A stretch of 64,000 nucleotides of DNA. Source: Aliarcobacter lanthieri. GTDB lineage: Bacteria; Campylobacterota; Campylobacteria; Campylobacterales; Arcobacteraceae. Numbering within the stretch: position 1 is the stretch's first letter; each line of letters opens with the position of its first letter. The stretch spans positions 1,054,001-1,118,000 of the forward strand of contig NZ_CP053839.1 in the NCBI RefSeq assembly GCF_013201625.1. Direction: 5' to 3'. Made by a program: the position numbers and the translations under genes. The notes beneath the pieces are model-generated. The model was not told the DNA's origin and did no database searches. It saw only the letters and a program-made list of their open reading frames with translations. Positions 3,619 through 54,543 of the stretch are shown piece after piece.

Positions 3619-5715
3619 TTAAAATTTATAAATTGCTCCAATCCCAAATTTTCTAGGTTCATTAAAACCAACCCAAGCATTACCATCTCTTTCCATATAA
3701 GAAGTTACATAGTCTTCATTTGTAATATTTTTAATATAAGCATAAATATCCCAAGTATTTATTTTATAACCAATTTTTGCATTAGCTGTTATTCCACCAT
3801 CTGTTTTTAGTATTTTCCCTTCTCCACCATTATATGAAGAGTTGAAGAAATTATTTGAACCTTGTGCATATAGATCTACTCTTCCATATATTCCACTATT
3901 AGCTAAATATGATATACCTAAATTTGCTGTATATCTTGGAGTTTCTTGTATCCTTTCTCCATCAAAACTTCTTTTTCCATTATTAAAATCATCATATTTT
4001 GCTTGTATTAATCCTAAAGCACCTGAAATACTCCAATTATCAGTTAAGAAATAAGTTCCATCTATTTCTATACCTTGAGAATGTCCTTTTTTTGCATTAT
4101 CAACAAAAAAATTCCCTATATTATCAACATAGTAAACATGAACATCTTTTATATCCATTCTAAAAATAGCTGTATTTAAAGCAAAATTGTCTCCTATATA
4201 TTTTGCTCCTATTTCATAATTTAATGATTTTTGTGGTTCAAAAGTATTCTCTTGACTTAAATTTGATGTAGCATTTGAAGGAGTATAGTTTAATCCACCA
4301 GGTAAGTAACCTTTTGAAACTGAAACATAAGTTGTTAGATTGTCATTAACTTTATAAGAAAGTGCAATTTTTGGTAAAAATGAGTTCCAAGTTTTCTCAT
4401 CTTTATATGTAAATTCTCCTATTGGATTACCACCCCAAATCCTTTTTACATCAGCATCAACTTCTTTTTTAATTCTTTGATATCTTCCTCCTAATGTTAA
4501 ATCAACTTTATCTATAATAGGAATAATAACTTGTCCAAAAATAGCTTGAGTTTTACTTGTTGCAGAAGATTTATAGTTTGCTTGATATACTTGTCCATAA
4601 TAATCACTTTCGTAACCGTATGGTCCTTGATCTCTATCTTCTTTATCTAAATATAATCCAGTTAGCCACTTAATATCTTGATTTTTACTTGAAAGTTTAA
4701 ATTCTTGAGTTGTTGTTTCAAAATCTGTAACATTCCATTGTCTTAATCCATCAAAAGAGTTTCCAGACATATTATCTACATCATAATCTCCATTAACTTT
4801 TACTTTTTTATGAGTTGTTGTAGATTCAAATTTAACTTTATCTAGTTCATAAGATACATTTAAAGCTTGAGAATTTAATTTGGTTTTTTCCCATGTAGGC
4901 ATTTCAAAGCTTACATTTTTTGCATCTTTTCTTTTAAAATCATTTATTAGAGTTGAAGCATTTTTAACTATACCATTGATTCCATATTTATTTTCATAAT
5001 TATTTGTAATAGTTAATTTTGTAGATAAATTATCTGTTGGCTTCCATAGTAAAAATCCACTTGTTTTTCTATCATTTTCTTTATTCGCATGTTTATCCAT
5101 ACTAGGATAATGATTTTCTATCCATCCATCAGTATGATAATATGTGTTATTTATACCAGCAAATAACTTATTATCAATGATTGCACCACTTGCATTTACT
5201 TTTGTATCAAAAGTATTATCATTGCCATATTCTGTTCCAATAGTCCCTTTCCATTTATTTTCTGGAGTTTTAGTAACTATATTTATAACAGCACCAATTG
5301 CATCTTTTCCATAAAGTGTTCCTTGTGGACCTCTTAAAACTTCTATTTGTTCTATATCACCAAAACTTGGATTGTAATCAAATTTATCATAATAAGGAAC
5401 TCCATCAACATAAATAACAACTGGATTGCTATGTGTAAATTGAGAAGTATTTAAACCTCTAAAAGAAGTATTACTTCCTATTGTATTTTGATTGTACATA
5501 TTTGGAATCTCTTTTATAACATCTTGAATAGTTTTAATTCCTTTTTGTTCTATATCTTCTTGCGTTATTACAGATATACTTTGAGGAACATCTTGTATAT
5601 TTTCCTCTATTTTATTTGCACTAACTTTTATTTCATCTAATTTTGTTGTTTGAGTTTCATTTGAAAGAAGTATTGAACTTACAAATAAAGAAGCCAAAAT
5701 TAACTTTTTTTCCAT
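3619..5715 (-). CDS. TonB-dependent outer-membrane receptor, siderophore type
   Basis: This is a 698-residue receptor with a signal peptide (MEKKLILASLFVSSILLSNE). A TonB box-like stretch (KLDEIKVSA) is followed by the plug domain (DVPQSISVITQEDIEQKGI, FRGLNTS, VYVDGVPYYD-like region, IEVLRGPQGTLYGKDAIGAV) and a 22-strand-type beta-barrel ending in aromatic F (GIGAIYKF), as needed for outer-membrane assembly. Such proteins import ferric siderophores or other scarce ligands using TonB energy. The divergent AraC-type gene at 5828 and the palindrome between them suggest iron- or siderophore-responsive control. No siderophore synthesis or ABC uptake genes are adjacent, so a xenosiderophore is plausible. 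Confidence 0.93.
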   Translation of the reverse strand: MEKKLILASLFVSSILLSNETQTTKLDEIKVSANKIEENIQDVPQSISVITQEDIEQKGIKTIQDVIKEIPNMYNQNTIGSNTSFRGLNTSQFTHSNPVVIYVDGVPYYDKFDYNPSFGDIEQIEVLRGPQGTLYGKDAIGAVINIVTKTPENKWKGTIGTEYGNDNTFDTKVNASGAIIDNKLFAGINNTYYHTDGWIENHYPSMDKHANKENDRKTSGFLLWKPTDNLSTKLTITNNYENKYGINGIVKNASTLINDFKRKDAKNVSFEMPTWEKTKLNSQALNVSYELDKVKFESTTTHKKVKVNGDYDVDNMSGNSFDGLRQWNVTDFETTTQEFKLSSKNQDIKWLTGLYLDKEDRDQGPYGYESDYYGQVYQANYKSSATSKTQAIFGQVIIPIIDKVDLTLGGRYQRIKKEVDADVKRIWGGNPIGEFTYKDEKTWNSFLPKIALSYKVNDNLTTYVSVSKGYLPGGLNYTPSNATSNLSQENTFEPQKSLNYEIGAKYIGDNFALNTAIFRMDIKDVHVYYVDNIGNFFVDNAKKGHSQGIEIDGTYFLTDNWSISGALGLIQAKYDDFNNGKRSFDGERIQETPRYTANLGISYLANSGIYGRVDLYAQGSNNFFNSSYNGGEGKILKTDGGITANAKIGYKINTWDIYAYIKNITNEDYVTSYMERDGNAWVGFNEPRKFGIGAIYKF

Positions 5716-49604: not shown

Positions 49605-50111
49605 TTAATATATAAATCTCATAGGTTTATATTTAGTCATAGTCCAAAAAATAAAAGAAAAGAATATTATAAAGGCATAGGTAGCAAAACCAATATCTCT
49701 TCCATTTTCTTTTTCATAAAAGTATCTATCAACTACTTGTTCAAAAGACTTTTTTGTTGATCCTCTAATAGAATAAACACCACTTAAACTACATTGACTA
49801 TTTACAAACTCCAAATATTTTCCATTAAGCCAAACATCAGGTCTTTCTCCCATAACATTTGTACTAATTGTCATTACATCATGTATTTTAGTATCCCAAG
49901 CCCCTTTCCCTCTACAATTTTCTGGATGAGTTATCCTTTTTGCCCACTCAGAAGAATATGGATTTTTTTGCCAATCATCATTTTTATTAATTATCTTATC
50001 TCTCATTTGGTTTTTTATTTGTTCTCTTGATTGTTCATTTAATTCTGAATAATTAGTATTAGCAAAAGAAAGACTTGATACAAAAACAAGTATATTGATT
50101 AAATTTTTCAT
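49605..50111 (-). CDS. Exported protein with C-terminal membrane helix, unknown
   Basis: This 168-residue protein has a signal peptide (MKNLINILVFVSSLSFANTN), a charged middle region with two Cys (HPENCRGKG, SQCSLSG) and a final membrane helix (ATYAFIIFFSFIFWTMTKYK). It may be a type IV secretion accessory protein. No family is recognised. The gap to the upstream transglycosylase gene is 195 bases with nothing evident. Confidence 0.5.
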   Translation of the reverse strand: MKNLINILVFVSSLSFANTNYSELNEQSREQIKNQMRDKIINKNDDWQKNPYSSEWAKRITHPENCRGKGAWDTKIHDVMTISTNVMGERPDVWLNGKYLEFVNSQCSLSGVYSIRGSTKKSFEQVVDRYFYEKENGRDIGFATYAFIIFFSFIFWTMTKYKPMRFIY

Positions 50112-50306
50112 GTAATTTCTCTTTTTATTTATATATTTTGAATTTTAACATTTAACAAAAATAAAAACAACCAAATATGAAAATTATTTTAATTTTTTTA
50201 TTTTCTAATAATAAATTATACTTAGAAGTTTATTATATATTTTATATTTTGTCCCAAGAAGGACAAGGTTATAATAGTTAAGTATTAAGATTATTTAAAG
50301 GTCTCT

Positions 50307-50894
50307 TCAATATATGACAAGTGAATTTTCTATTTCTATTTTTGAAGAACTATAAGTTGGATTATCGCCCTGTTGTTTTGATAATTTAATGTAATTATCG
50401 ATTAGCTTCTTTTTATAAATTTTATTATACTTAGGAGTCATTGAATGATAACTAGCTAAAACTTCCCAACTCCATTTACCTTTGTTTAATTTTATTTTTT
50501 TTTCAATAATGCTACAAGCATTTTTATAGGATATATTTTTGTCAAAATAGTTATCTAATGGGTATTTAAAGCTATTATAATTAATTTGAAAAAGACCCAA
50601 ATCTAAATTAGTGATTTTGTTTTTGATTAGTGATTTAGAAATATTTATGCAGTTCTGAATATTTATACAATCTATTAACATATTATCATCTGTTTTTTTG
50701 TACTCAAAACCATTTAATATATTTTTGAATTTTTTTAATGTTGAGGTTTCATTTGTTCTTATGAAATATGGATATGAGGTTTCATTCTCTGTAATTTTTA
50801 TTGTTTTAAGAAGTATATCAGGAACAATACATCTTTCATTATTATTTGCAAAAGATATTTGAAATATAATAAATAAAGATAATATTGCTCTCAT
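50307..50894 (-). CDS. VirB1-like lytic transglycosylase
   Basis: This 195-residue exported protein (signal peptide MRAILSLFIIFQISFANN) has a lysozyme-like SLT domain: KITENETSYPYFIRTN with the catalytic-type Glu, NLDLGLFQINYNSF (the GLFQIN motif of SLT enzymes) and VLASYHSMTPKYNKIYKK. It cuts peptidoglycan locally so the type IV channel or pilus can be built. It is the fifth gene of the leftward tra operon, 5 bases after the TraE stop. Confidence 0.85.
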   Translation of the reverse strand: MRAILSLFIIFQISFANNNERCIVPDILLKTIKITENETSYPYFIRTNETSTLKKFKNILNGFEYKKTDDNMLIDCINIQNCINISKSLIKNKITNLDLGLFQINYNSFKYPLDNYFDKNISYKNACSIIEKKIKLNKGKWSWEVLASYHSMTPKYNKIYKKKLIDNYIKLSKQQGDNPTYSSSKIEIENSLVIY

Positions 50895-50899
50895 TGATA

Positions 50900-51451
50900 T
50901 TATTTTATAACCTCAAAGCTTTTAATAACAAGTTTTTTATTATTAACTCTATAATTAAAATTTATTCTTGCTTTTTTCTCTTCCATTGCTATATTACCTG
51001 TCATAGTTTTTAAAAGTCCTTCGACTGTAAAACTATTATTTTGGTGATTTTCTAGTAATTTTAAAGGATAAAAAGCTTGATAGATATTGTCTTTTTTGAT
51101 TTGTTCAGCTTCTTTAACTAAAAAATCTTTGATTGCTTTTGCTTCCATTGGATCACTACTAAAATAACCTTGAATAGAATCAAAAGTTTTATTAACATTA
51201 GATGGACTAATAGTTAGTAAAGCACTACTTAAATGAAAACCAATTTGTTCGTAATAGCTATAGCTAAATGCATTTCCCACATTTTCAAATTCGCTTGTTA
51301 TGTAAGGAGGTGTTATTATTATTTTACTATTTTTGCTAGTGTTTATTACAGTTATTGCAAGGAATAAATTTGTTAATACTAGTAAAAATGAAAAAACTTT
51401 AAATAAATCTAATTGTCTTAGATTTCTGTTGTATAATCCCCAGAATCTCAT
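50900..51451 (-). CDS. traE: TraE family type IV secretion protein (VirB8-like)
   Basis: This 183-residue protein matches TraE of F-type systems: an N-terminal membrane helix (FSFLLVLTNLFLAITVIN), then IIITPPYITSEFENVGNAFS, YYEQIGFHLSSALLTISPSN, FYPLKLLENHQNNSFTVEGL and a C-terminal strand region ARINFNYRVNNKKLVIKSFE. TraE is an inner-membrane assembly factor. The start overlaps the end of the upstream 70-residue gene. The order pilin-TraL-x-TraE is that of F-type operons. Confidence 0.85.
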   Translation of the reverse strand: MRFWGLYNRNLRQLDLFKVFSFLLVLTNLFLAITVINTSKNSKIIITPPYITSEFENVGNAFSYSYYEQIGFHLSSALLTISPSNVNKTFDSIQGYFSSDPMEAKAIKDFLVKEAEQIKKDNIYQAFYPLKLLENHQNNSFTVEGLLKTMTGNIAMEEKKARINFNYRVNNKKLVIKSFEVIK

Positions 51452-51660
51452 CTTTGTTCATCTTTCTTTTTTTCAAAAAATAAAACACTAGCTAATATTG
51501 TGAAAAGAGCAAATGCTGGTACAAAATAATCTTGTGTTGAATCTGTTATTAAAAATTCTATAGTTGTTGCAAAAAAAACTACTATAAATAGAGTTTTTAA
51601 AACAACTATTCCATCTTTTGAGCCAAATGCTTTTTTAAGTTTATTGATTTTATCTTCCAT
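51448..51660 (-). CDS. Small two-helix membrane protein between traL and traE
   Basis: This 70-residue protein has two membrane helices (VVLKTLFIVVFFATTIEFLI and FVPAFALFTILASVLFF) and a charged tail. Its position inside the operon with overlaps on the TraE side supports a role in the type IV apparatus. No homologue comes to mind. Confidence 0.6.
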   Translation of the reverse strand: MEDKINKLKKAFGSKDGIVVLKTLFIVVFFATTIEFLITDSTQDYFVPAFALFTILASVLFFEKKKDEQR

Positions 51661-51670
51661 ATTTTCCTCT

Positions 51671-51949
51671 TTATCTTGATAATTCTCTACACCAGCTCTC
51701 TGGAACTCTATTTTTTAATCCATAGAGCCCAAAGTGATATGCTAAGTGTTTTTGATAACCAGCTTCCTTTTTTGAAGCAAGTTTATCACTAACTTTTAGG
51801 AAAATTAAACCTAATATTAAGCCTATAAATGGGTGGTTTGATAAAACTCCAAAAAATATAAAGAATAAAACTTTAATAAAATCTGACAAATCCCACCATA
51901 AAATTTGAGGTTCAGCATTTAAAAATTTAGGTATATATCTTCCTTCCAT
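51671..51949 (-). CDS. traL: TraL family type IV secretion protein
   Basis: This 92-residue inner-membrane protein has the TraL pattern: RYIPKFLNAEPQILWWDLSD at the start, two hydrophobic helices (FFIFFGVLSNHPFIGLILGL), and the closing HFGLYGLKNRVPESWCREL. This equals the H-x-x-Y-x-x-G...P-x-S-x-x-RE consensus of TraL. It works in assembly of F-type pili and lies directly after the pilin gene, as in F. Confidence 0.82.
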   Translation of the reverse strand: MEGRYIPKFLNAEPQILWWDLSDFIKVLFFIFFGVLSNHPFIGLILGLIFLKVSDKLASKKEAGYQKHLAYHFGLYGLKNRVPESWCRELSR

Positions 51950-51960
51950 ATTTGCTTCTT

Positions 51961-52314
51961 TTAATATATTTTTGTCAGAATATTTTGAATTCCATTTTGA
52001 ATAGATTCAATATAATTAAATGTAGAACTTTCAATCATTAATGCTGTATATCTTGAATCAACCATATCTGGAATCATTCCAACTCCAAAACCAACCATTA
52101 GCATAAAAATACCAGCTAAAATTGCTCCACTTTTAAATAGGATTATTGTTAATCCTAGAAAAGCTGTCGCTATTATCTTCCCCCAAGTACCTTTTAAAGC
52201 TTCTGAAATATCTGTGTACCAATCATTTACTTCACTCCCACCTGTTCCAGCAAAAGCTGAAATGCCTAATAATCCAAGTAGAATAAATATTTTTAAGAAT
52301 ATTTTTTTGTTCAT
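51961..52314 (-). CDS. Pilin-like protein (TraA/VirB2 class)
   Basis: This 117-residue protein has a signal peptide (IFLKIFILLGLLGISAFAG) and two hydrophobic helices (WGKIIATAFLGLTIILFKSG and AGIFMLMVGFGVGMIPDMV). The size and helix arrangement are those of type IV conjugative pilins. The mature part would be about 95 residues. It is the first gene of the leftward operon, after an 87-bp leader copy and an AGAGG site. Confidence 0.78.
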   Translation of the reverse strand: MNKKIFLKIFILLGLLGISAFAGTGGSEVNDWYTDISEALKGTWGKIIATAFLGLTIILFKSGAILAGIFMLMVGFGVGMIPDMVDSRYTALMIESSTFNYIESIQNGIQNILTKIY

Positions 52315-52492: not shown

Positions 52493-52549
52493 GATTGATT
52501 TATTGTATATCTATGATTGATTATTTATTTTAAAAATATCAACTAAGTA

Positions 52550-52578
52550 TTGACAAATAATAAAAATTTTACTAAGAT
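52550..52578 (+). promoter_or_regulatory. Sigma-70-type promoter upstream of the intron
   Basis: TTGACA (52550-52555), a 17-base spacer and TAAGAT (52573-52578). It would give a transcript that runs rightward into the intron region. The region 52579-52670 shows no coding frame. Confidence 0.55.
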
Positions 52579-53152
52579 TCCATATATTACTTTTATAGTT
52601 GAATAAGATTTTTTTAATCTAGTGTTTTCCAGACACATTTTTTAGATTTTTTAATCTTTAATTTTTTTAAGGCTCTCTTATCTGGAAAAGCCTTGGTAGA
52701 ATTTCTTTTAATATGAGATAATTAGAAATTCAAGTCGGTAAAAAAGTCGAATGCCGACTTAAAACCCCTCTAATTGCGGGGAAGTGCTAGGCGACTAAAA
52801 AAGAAAGACTAGCAGTATTCTGTACATACTCTCGAAAGTACAGCATTTACGAATGTAAATGATAGGTTTTGTCTGTGGTTTAAAAGAGTAATCTCCACTT
52901 TTATAGTTTATAAATTGTAAAAACCGCATTTATGTAGCAAATACATAAAGTAGCAAATAGGGTAATACCTATTGGATGGTAACAATGACAAAAATAGAGA
53001 CTATCAACTAAACGCAGCGAAGTTTCTTATGTAAGCATAATGAAGAGCTAAAAGGTTTGAAGAAATCATAAGCTCCACTTTTTAGCTTTTTACTATGCTT
53101 ATTCTAAGAAGTTTGTTCAGAGACTGGATCGAAAGATCGTAAACTACAAGCA

Positions 53153-53741
53153 ATATCAATCTACACTACACACAAATCACAATCAAACAATCAACATTTA
53201 ATAATTCAAACAAGAAAATCTTGTTATTTATAAGGATTTATTAATGGCTGAAACAAAAGAGAATCAAAAAAAAGAAGTAGAAATTCCAAGATGGCAATTT
53301 TTACAAAATGAGAGTATTACTAGAGCAACAAATCTTATAAAAGAGCATGGTGCAAATGTTGAATTTTTAGTAATAAAAGATAAACAATTTCTTGCTGAAA
53401 CTGTAAGACCGATAGAAAATATCGATGAGTCTATGGACTACCTTTACCGATTAGAAGGAAGAGGGATAAATACAGAGGATATTCAAAAATTTAGAACAGA
53501 ATATCAAATGATGTGTGAACAAATTAAAACTGTTGAGAATATGGCTGTTGAGTTTTTATCAAAAGCTAGAGTTAGAACTAGCAATAGAAACTTAAATAGA
53601 AAAATACAAAGATTAAGTAAAGCATCAAATAAAGCTTCTACTGATGATAAAGAAGAAAAAGCAGGGTAAATAAGCTTTTTTAAGACAGATATACAGGTTT
53701 TGTGATTGTGTATTTGTGGTGTGTGTAGTGTAGATTGATAT
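53153..53741. repeat. Inverted repeat enclosing the intron gene (extended P8 stem)
   Basis: The 21 bases at 53153-53173 are the perfect reverse complement of 53721-53741. Further imperfect pairing extends inward (CACAAATCAC with GTGATTGTG-like sequence). In the RNA this closes a long stem around the 53244-53669 gene, exactly where group I introns place P8. Confidence 0.85.
53244..53669 (+). CDS. Intron-internal protein of unknown function
   Basis: This 141-residue, mostly helical, charged protein (start MAETKENQKKEVEIPRWQFL) has a predicted coiled segment FRTEYQMMCEQIKTVENMAV and a basic tail (RNLNRKIQRLSKASNKASTD). It shows no LAGLIDADG, GIY-YIG or HNH homing-endonuclease motif, the usual cargo of group I introns. 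AAGGA precedes ATG 53244. It lies wholly inside the P8 inverted repeat. It may be a passenger gene or a DNA-binding factor of the element. Confidence 0.6.
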   Translation: MAETKENQKKEVEIPRWQFLQNESITRATNLIKEHGANVEFLVIKDKQFLAETVRPIENIDESMDYLYRLEGRGINTEDIQKFRTEYQMMCEQIKTVENMAVEFLSKARVRTSNRNLNRKIQRLSKASNKASTDDKEEKAG

Positions 53742-53976
53742 AAGGTAGTTGAAATGTGGGGTACATTTTGCAAAGTTTTTTATTAATATTTTGTAAATTG
53801 TAAAAGTATAGTCCGTTCTTATGTGAGAGCATAAGCTGTTTATATGTAATAGATTACATTTTAAACGGGATAGAAGTTGCGATTCTATCTGAACATTAAG
53901 GCAAGTTTATAACTAGCACAAAAAATGATTTTTTTAGTGCTAGTACTTACATCACTTAATTAAAAATCCTTTTTTG

Positions 53977-54018
53977 TGTTAGTTATTTAAAAATTGTTTC
54001 TAAGGAAACAAACTAACA
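53977..54018 (+). promoter_or_regulatory. Nested hairpin just before a gene start
   Basis: Outer stem TGTTAGTT/AACTAACA and inner stem GTTTC-TAAG-GAAAC end two bases before the AAAGGAGG ribosome site of the next gene. Sequestering or exposing that site is possible. An ACTAGCAC/GTGCTAGT stem with T-run (53912-53944) comes before it. Confidence 0.55.
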
Positions 54019-54033
54019 TCAAAGGAGGTGTTT

Positions 54034-54312
54034 ATGGTATATTTTGCATATATATTATTGTTTATATTATTTTATATAATAATAAAAACAAAAGAAATAA
54101 AAATAAGCAGAGATACAATTCTGTTTTATGGAAAATATATAGCAATAGCAATAATGGGCATAGGCACTAATATTATTAGTGCAGGAATATTAGGACATTT
54201 TATGCCAGTTGAAGGAGTTACATTAGAAACATTGTTTTTAGTTAAAAATTTTGGTATAATTATTCTAATAAGTGGTGCAAAAATGCTATTAAAAATCGAA
54301 AAAGGAAAATAA
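54034..54312 (+). CDS. Small membrane protein
   Basis: This 92-residue protein has three hydrophobic helices (YFAYILLFILFYIIIKTK, YIAIAIMGIGTNIISAGIL, FGIIILISGAKMLLKI). ATG 54034 is set by AAAGGAGG five bases upstream. GTG 54028 is less likely. It is followed at 1 base by another tiny membrane protein. Function unknown; entry exclusion is one possibility for small membrane proteins of conjugative elements. Confidence 0.55.
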   Translation: MVYFAYILLFILFYIIIKTKEIKISRDTILFYGKYIAIAIMGIGTNIISAGILGHFMPVEGVTLETLFLVKNFGIIILISGAKMLLKIEKGK

Positions 54313-54313
54313 A

Positions 54314-54436
54314 ATGGTTAATGTAACTCAAGGGCTAATAGCACTAGGAACATTTACAGTTATTGTAGCTTTAATTCCAATTTTAATGGATATCTTTATG
54401 AAAGCTCCAAATAAAAAAAACAAAAAATCTTGCTAA
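54314..54436 (+). CDS. 40-residue single-helix membrane protein
   Basis: The frame has an N-terminal MVNVTQGLIALGTFTVIVAL, continuing hydrophobic, and a basic, Asn/Lys-rich end. It starts one base after the stop of the preceding gene, so the two are likely cotranslated. No family is known. Terminator-like stems follow. Confidence 0.5.
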   Translation: MVNVTQGLIALGTFTVIVALIPILMDIFMKAPNKKNKKSC

Positions 54437-54445
54437 ATTCTTAGC

Positions 54446-54483
54446 AAACTAATCTATAAATAATTTATTGTTTAAATTAGTTT
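54446..54483 (+). terminator. Hairpin after the small membrane protein genes
   Basis: AAACTAAT and ATTAGTTT are separated by 22 bases. A smaller TGCTAA/TTAGCA stem precedes it at 54431-54446. Probably ends the small operon. Confidence 0.5.
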
Positions 54484-54543
54484 CCAGTTAATTCTGGAGG
54501 GTTTTTGTTGTCAAAAATTTGTTGCTCATATGAGTCAATCTGT

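Follow-up and report, generated by a model that had tools for sequence, protein, structure and literature searches.

Comparative evidence for an IA2-like group I intron carrying a non-endonuclease gene in the noncoding leader of an Aliarcobacter element

The window analysed here, a 64-kb stretch of Aliarcobacter lanthieri DNA, contains on its forward strand a noncoding leader that is divided into a 5' exon (52579–52673) and a 3' exon (53901–54033) by a long structured element with a 141-codon gene inside it. Upstream of the 5' exon lies a promoter-like sequence, TTGACA-N17-TAAGAT (52550–52578), which scores 10/12 in a consensus scan; such sites are no more frequent in the region than in shuffled sequences, and the hexamers are recognisable in a congener genome, G022, as TTGACA-N17-TAATAT. 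The 5' exon is conserved in G022 and contains a hairpin, GTGTTTTCCAGACAC, at about 52622–52636. The 3' exon is a structured leader with alternative hairpins and ends in the ribosome-binding site of the first of two small membrane ORFs (54034–54312 and about 54314–54436, both +), which together with a terminator-like hairpin (54481–54510) make up the remainder of the predicted transcript (54034–54510). Across the ligated junction no reading frame stays open for more than 37 codons, in agreement with the original prediction that the exons are noncoding. Its further claim, that the spliced product is not an ordinary mRNA, was not borne out: the exons make up the leader of a small mRNA, and the spliced product would be the leader of an ordinary message for two tiny membrane proteins. 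Downstream of this operon come a gene with no match in any library, which was called SSB-like by eye on the basis of its position and the tail at its C terminus, and the RecT and nuclease genes, recognised through weak similarity to Pfam families. The window also holds F/SXT-type transfer genes. Plasmid leading regions bear ssb and anti-defence genes (PMC11541004), and from gene content we infer that these operons are leading regions.

Several further features of the surroundings were observed. Sequence resembling the end of a 94-aa gene (..SIDK stop) remains next to the promoter at 52529–52560, and it looks as if the transfer genes at 49605–52314 had inserted between the 94-aa gene and the leader; these transfer genes are absent from the corresponding place in G022. 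Two noncoding blocks (53901–54033 and 54409–54504) are 84–95% conserved between otherwise unrelated Aliarcobacter plasmids and elements and flank the small, divergent membrane ORFs, with which they possibly form a regulated small-protein or type I toxin-like cassette. The 3' exon is 84–85% identical in intronless Aliarcobacter plasmids and in the G026 chromosome. These intronless relatives have the 3' exon in common but a different sequence upstream in place of the 5' exon, and hence there is no clean empty site. At the G026 loci (L067/L007) the sequence AACATTAAG upstream of the conserved 3' exon equals the last 9 nt of the intron and is possibly an intron relic.

By comparative evidence, the element at 52674–53900 (+, 1227 nt with its ORF) is a group I intron with the layout of subgroup IA2. 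The original prediction had placed it at 52677–53900; the intron and its end were upheld, but the start is most likely 52674, a position taken from the P1 pairing only. The P element AATTGCGGGGAA (52772), the Q element AACGCAGCGAAG (53011) and the R element GTTCAGAGACT (53115) each occur once on the two strands of the window, with 0.10, 0.68 and 0.08 occurrences expected per window, respectively, for patterns that were composed after the sequence was seen and modelled on the RF00028 consensus. They lie in the correct order on the + strand, and an S element, TATAGTCC, is present at 53807. The intron ends in TCTGAACATTAAG, with its last base at 53900, which resembles the end of the T4 td intron (TCTGAACATAATG/C). 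The earlier reading of ordered P, R and S elements with a td-like 3' end is therefore confirmed, P and R being unique in the window. An early candidate for R near 53000 (AGAGACTATC) was dropped because Q comes after that site.

The P3/P7 pseudoknot and the P4, P6, P8 and P9 pairings are all found in the intron. P1 pairs AAGGC (52669–52673) with GCCTT (52690–52694) and is followed by P2 (52699–52706/52724–52731) and P2.1 (52732–52739/52753–52760), while P3 joins ACCCC (52764–52768) to the distant GGGGT (53758–53762). The P element, which lies with the 5' strand of P3 in 52764–52783, contains the 5' strand of P4 (TTGCG, 52774–52778) and the Q element (53011–53022) its 3' strand (CGCAG, 53013–53017). 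Between them lies a P5 domain of about 230 nt (52784–53012) with the motif GTAGCAA..GGTAATNC..GGATGGTAA..AATAGAGAC; this domain is 85.8% identical to that of G022, has a structure z of -6.2, and its motif recurs in other members of the family described below. P6 and its extension (53020–53029/53105–53114, spanning 53020–53114) show 8 two-sided compensations (z = -9.5). The R element (53115–53125) holds the 5' strand of P7 (GACT, 53122–53125), which pairs with AGTC (53810–53813) in S, and is followed by the P7.1 hairpin GATCGAAAGATC within 53115–53138. The junction GAAAT, P3', P8, S and P9 occupy 53751–53839, where P8 forms a separate hairpin (53762–53779/53785–53802) and P9 spans 53818–53835. 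P9.1, P9.2 (53869–53889) and the conserved 3' end TGAACATTAAG with its terminal G complete the intron (53840–53900); similar ends are found in td and in other members. The 3' splice site was placed from the common end GAACANNAAG and the conserved 3' exon.

The gene lies in P7.2, which pairs AACTAC (53142–53147) with GTAGTT (53745–53750) and is lengthened by a stem that encloses the ORF, a perfect inverted repeat of 22 bp (53153–53174/53720–53741; null maximum 15 bp). The original prediction had described this repeat as perfect and as enclosing a 141-codon gene, both correctly, but as 21 bp long, and had assigned it to an extended P8 stem. That assignment does not hold because P3' and P8 are both downstream of the ORF stem, which makes the stem an extension of P7.2, as in IA2 introns. 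Phage IA2 introns likewise place P7.1 and P7.2 between R and P3', and it is the presence of both between P7 and P3' that assigns the intron to subgroup IA2.

The congener G022 carries the same element at 75% identity (78% for the intron alignment with the ORF loop excluded). Relative to column-shuffled controls, RNAalifold gave this alignment a z of -14.1; two-sided compensatory changes between the window and G022 numbered 24, compared with a mean of 9.3 and a maximum of 16 in the controls; since the structure was predicted from the same alignment, the controls were folded like the real one. P6 and P9 covary, and both genomes have a stem of 22 bp around the ORF, with a different sequence in each. 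The usual pair at the 5' splice site of group I introns is U·G. In the window this pair is C-G, in G022 it is U·G, and U·G is also readable by eye in both Campylobacter members. The C-G pair, together with a P7 5' strand (GACTGG) weaker than that of the relatives, could mean that the element is a relic, an intron that has lost its former splicing activity and survives as structured leader RNA with a gene. We regard this as improbable, given compensatory change that keeps the core pairs at about 25% divergence, an intact 3' end, intact P, Q, R and S elements, and the U·G pair retained by the relatives.

The RF00028 covariance model, the check proposed with the original prediction, found nothing in the window, either at its gathering score or at E values up to 10, and Rfam as a whole identified no family in the window, including any group II intron domain; other weak Rfam matches (miRNA, snoRNA) were set aside as chance. 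At its gathering score RF00028 also misses the known T4 nrdB intron, and therefore the check is blind here and its silence on the window says little; we attribute the silence to the long P7.2 and P5 insertions. By blastn, the best matches of the 3' part of the intron among phages were Pollock (E = 1e-3) and KIL1 (E = 4e-3), and both fall at S and P9 of genuine introns, which RF00028 scores at 101 and 60 bits, respectively. We built a covariance model, R1, from 19 aligned introns of phages and viral contigs with the R-P7.1-P7.2 pattern, a training set that held no Campylobacterota genome sequence. R1 matches the window at 53751–53839 (39.1 bits, E = 2.7e-7), its sole match in the whole genome at E up to 0.1, and matches G022 with 38.5 bits (E = 3.8e-7). 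R1 also detects six further loci at E values of 1e-12 to 7e-8, while Rfam at gathering scores detects 0/6. One viral contig (L063) and three genome matches (L028, L103, L109) were judged to be chance. The lack of an Rfam match and the noncoding surroundings would suit an unrelated large structured noncoding RNA in which P, R and S patterns occur by chance, but this is hardly credible in the face of the independent phage-derived model, its matches at the six other loci, and the ordered P, Q, R and S elements in all seven loci that were examined in full.

With G022, the six loci bring to seven the further introns that hold a non-endonuclease ORF at the same place; their host elements are from Campylobacter, Nitrosophilus, Poseidonibacter, Aliarcobacter and others. 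The six are G118, Nitrosophilus labii pHRV44 (G175), G256, G174, the Campylobacter upsaliensis plasmid NZ_OU701460.1 and C. iguaniorum pCIG1485E. The full order P-Q-R-ORF-P3'-P8-S-P9 was found in 7/7 loci examined in full; for N. labii a span of 900 nt yielded just the part from R onward. An integrase-core gene (L129, 2525–3592) precedes the intron ORF there, at the place expected for the first half of the intron, and the N. labii intron may be interrupted. Repeated AGTATTAAATTACTTCG units, iteron-like, were seen upstream of the C. upsaliensis intron (L127, about 3718–3930). An uninterrupted ORF-enclosing stem exceeds every shuffle in the window, G022, C. upsaliensis (15 vs 14), C. iguaniorum and G256, is borderline in N. 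labii, and does not exceed the shuffles in G118 and G174. Each of the eight introns lies upstream of ssb and/or recT/bet genes (in G022, by synteny with the window). The core of the original prediction, a group I intron that carries a gene other than an endonuclease between noncoding exons, is corroborated by the independent covariance model, the covariation with the congener and the seven further loci, and the locus is very probably an IA2-like group I intron that interrupts the 5' leader of a small operon next to ssb-like, recT and nuclease genes on a conjugative element of an Aliarcobacter-type genome.

The rarity of group I introns in Campylobacterota, also part of the prediction, applies broadly, with RF00028 matches in 1/60 relatives and IA2-type matches in 9/399 genomes of the order, but this kind recurs on mobile elements. 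Further introns detected by R1, with endonuclease-like genes or coding exons (nrd, polA, dnaK), look ordinary. The other Campylobacterales IA2-type introns in nrd, polA and dnaK are at L111, L112, L116, L117, L119, L120 and L121, some with ORFs that by eye appear HNH- or GIY-YIG-like, and an ordinary group I intron is present in the 23S rRNA of another congener (L021 of G017, 1501–1773; RF00028, 85 bits). Among open-licence papers we found no published report of introns of the window's kind in Campylobacterota.

The intron ORF (53244–53669, +, ribosome-binding site AAGGA) encodes a basic, helix-rich protein of 141 aa. Its homologue in G022 is 68% identical, with dN = 0.21 and dS = 1.25 between the two, and the dN/dS of about 0.17, which is only approximate because dS is near saturation, points to purifying selection. 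The ORFs of the window, G022, G256, N. labii and both Campylobacter members are homologous though diverged, while those of G118 and G174 have no detectable homology to this main group. At least eight introns appear to share an RNA layout, and their ORFs fall into two or more types with no homology detected between them. No family library names the window ORF or any of the family ORFs, a peptide-pattern search for homologues in viral and genome contigs found none, and AlphaFold2 with 2 or 4 sequences gave low-confidence models (pLDDT 58–60). A free-standing, diverged homologue is encoded in G185 and G208, both of which lack an R1 signal; at these loci (L135 and L134, respectively) it lies beside an ORF that by eye resembles ArdC-type antirestriction genes.

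In line with the original prediction, searches of Pfam, PHROGs, NCBIfam, PADLOC and PDB sequences revealed no homing-endonuclease domain in the ORF. Where a bacterial intron has an ORF, it usually encodes a homing endonuclease, the type of gene described for group I introns of bacterial rRNA, tRNA and protein genes (PMC3984707), and by that precedent the ORF could be a homing endonuclease or mobility protein of a novel type. This is very doubtful, as no library search turned up a nuclease motif and the exons differ between members, which have a common target only between closely related elements. A maturase-like splicing factor, dedicated to the intron and stabilising the ribozyme, is a possible though less likely identity for the protein: the position of the ORF is constant in the eight introns and the product is basic, helix-rich and under purifying selection, but two or more ORF types without detectable homology occupy the same site and the diverged homologue stands free in G185 and G208, where no intron signal was seen. 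As the proteins at the site differ between introns, we prefer to regard the protein as cargo of the element rather than as a homing endonuclease. As a guess, it might help an incoming element to become established, or bind RNA or DNA in a helper role.

Transcription would start near 52580. The RNA is predicted to fold into the P3-P8 and P4-P6 core, with the long P7.2 stem holding the ORF aside, a fold supported by the covariation. Family membership suggests that GTP would then cleave the RNA 3' of 52673 and that the released 5' exon would in turn attack 3' of the terminal G (53900), ligating the two parts of the leader; splicing by the window intron is thus presumed. The ORF would be translated from its own ribosome-binding site on the unspliced or the excised intron. 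The loop of the 5'-exon hairpin, TTTTCCAGA, and TCTGGAAAA of the P1 loop have complementary sequences in both the window and G022, and their pairing could aid or gate splicing. A more ambitious proposal takes the eight introns as a dedicated ribozyme family with a regulatory role on conjugative elements, in which the large P5 domain and the exon hairpin/P1-loop pairing would gate splicing and so time the expression of the ssb/recT establishment genes, P7.2 being an exchangeable expression site for element proteins; this we consider speculative and unlikely.

The T4 td and nrdB introns and those of the phages KIL1 and Pollock, all IA2, have the same order R, P7.1, P7.2, GAAAY, P3', P8, S and P9. 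The P9 hairpin of KIL1 is near-identical to that of the window, as is the 3' end of td. In contrast to the window, where the exons are noncoding, td, nrdB and KIL1 interrupt protein genes, and their ORFs, where present, are homing endonucleases. The P7.2 of the T4 and phage IA2 introns is a short hairpin, whereas that of the window carries the ORF, and the large P5 domain of the window is also unlike theirs. IStrons combine a group I intron with the genes of an IS transposon (PMC4227781). They likewise are group I introns with a gene other than a homing endonuclease, but no transposase or TnpB gene was found in the window intron. The c-di-GMP allosteric group I ribozyme of Clostridioides difficile, to which PMC3984707 refers, lies, as the window intron does, in a noncoding leader upstream of an ORF; by comparison, the window intron carries an ORF and no known aptamer was found in it. 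In fungal mitochondria, a group I intron with rRNA exons contains rps3, a gene that is under selection and encodes no endonuclease, a case that differs from the window in organism, gene and exon alike.

The finding describes a set of introns in the noncoding leaders of Campylobacterota conjugative elements, with other genes placed in one fixed stem. The set is invisible to the standard covariance model and, judged from sequence comparison, would constitute an unrecognised family missed by the standard RNA library, which suggests that group I introns are undercounted on plasmids. It also raises the question of why conjugative elements keep a ribozyme ahead of their ssb/recT genes.
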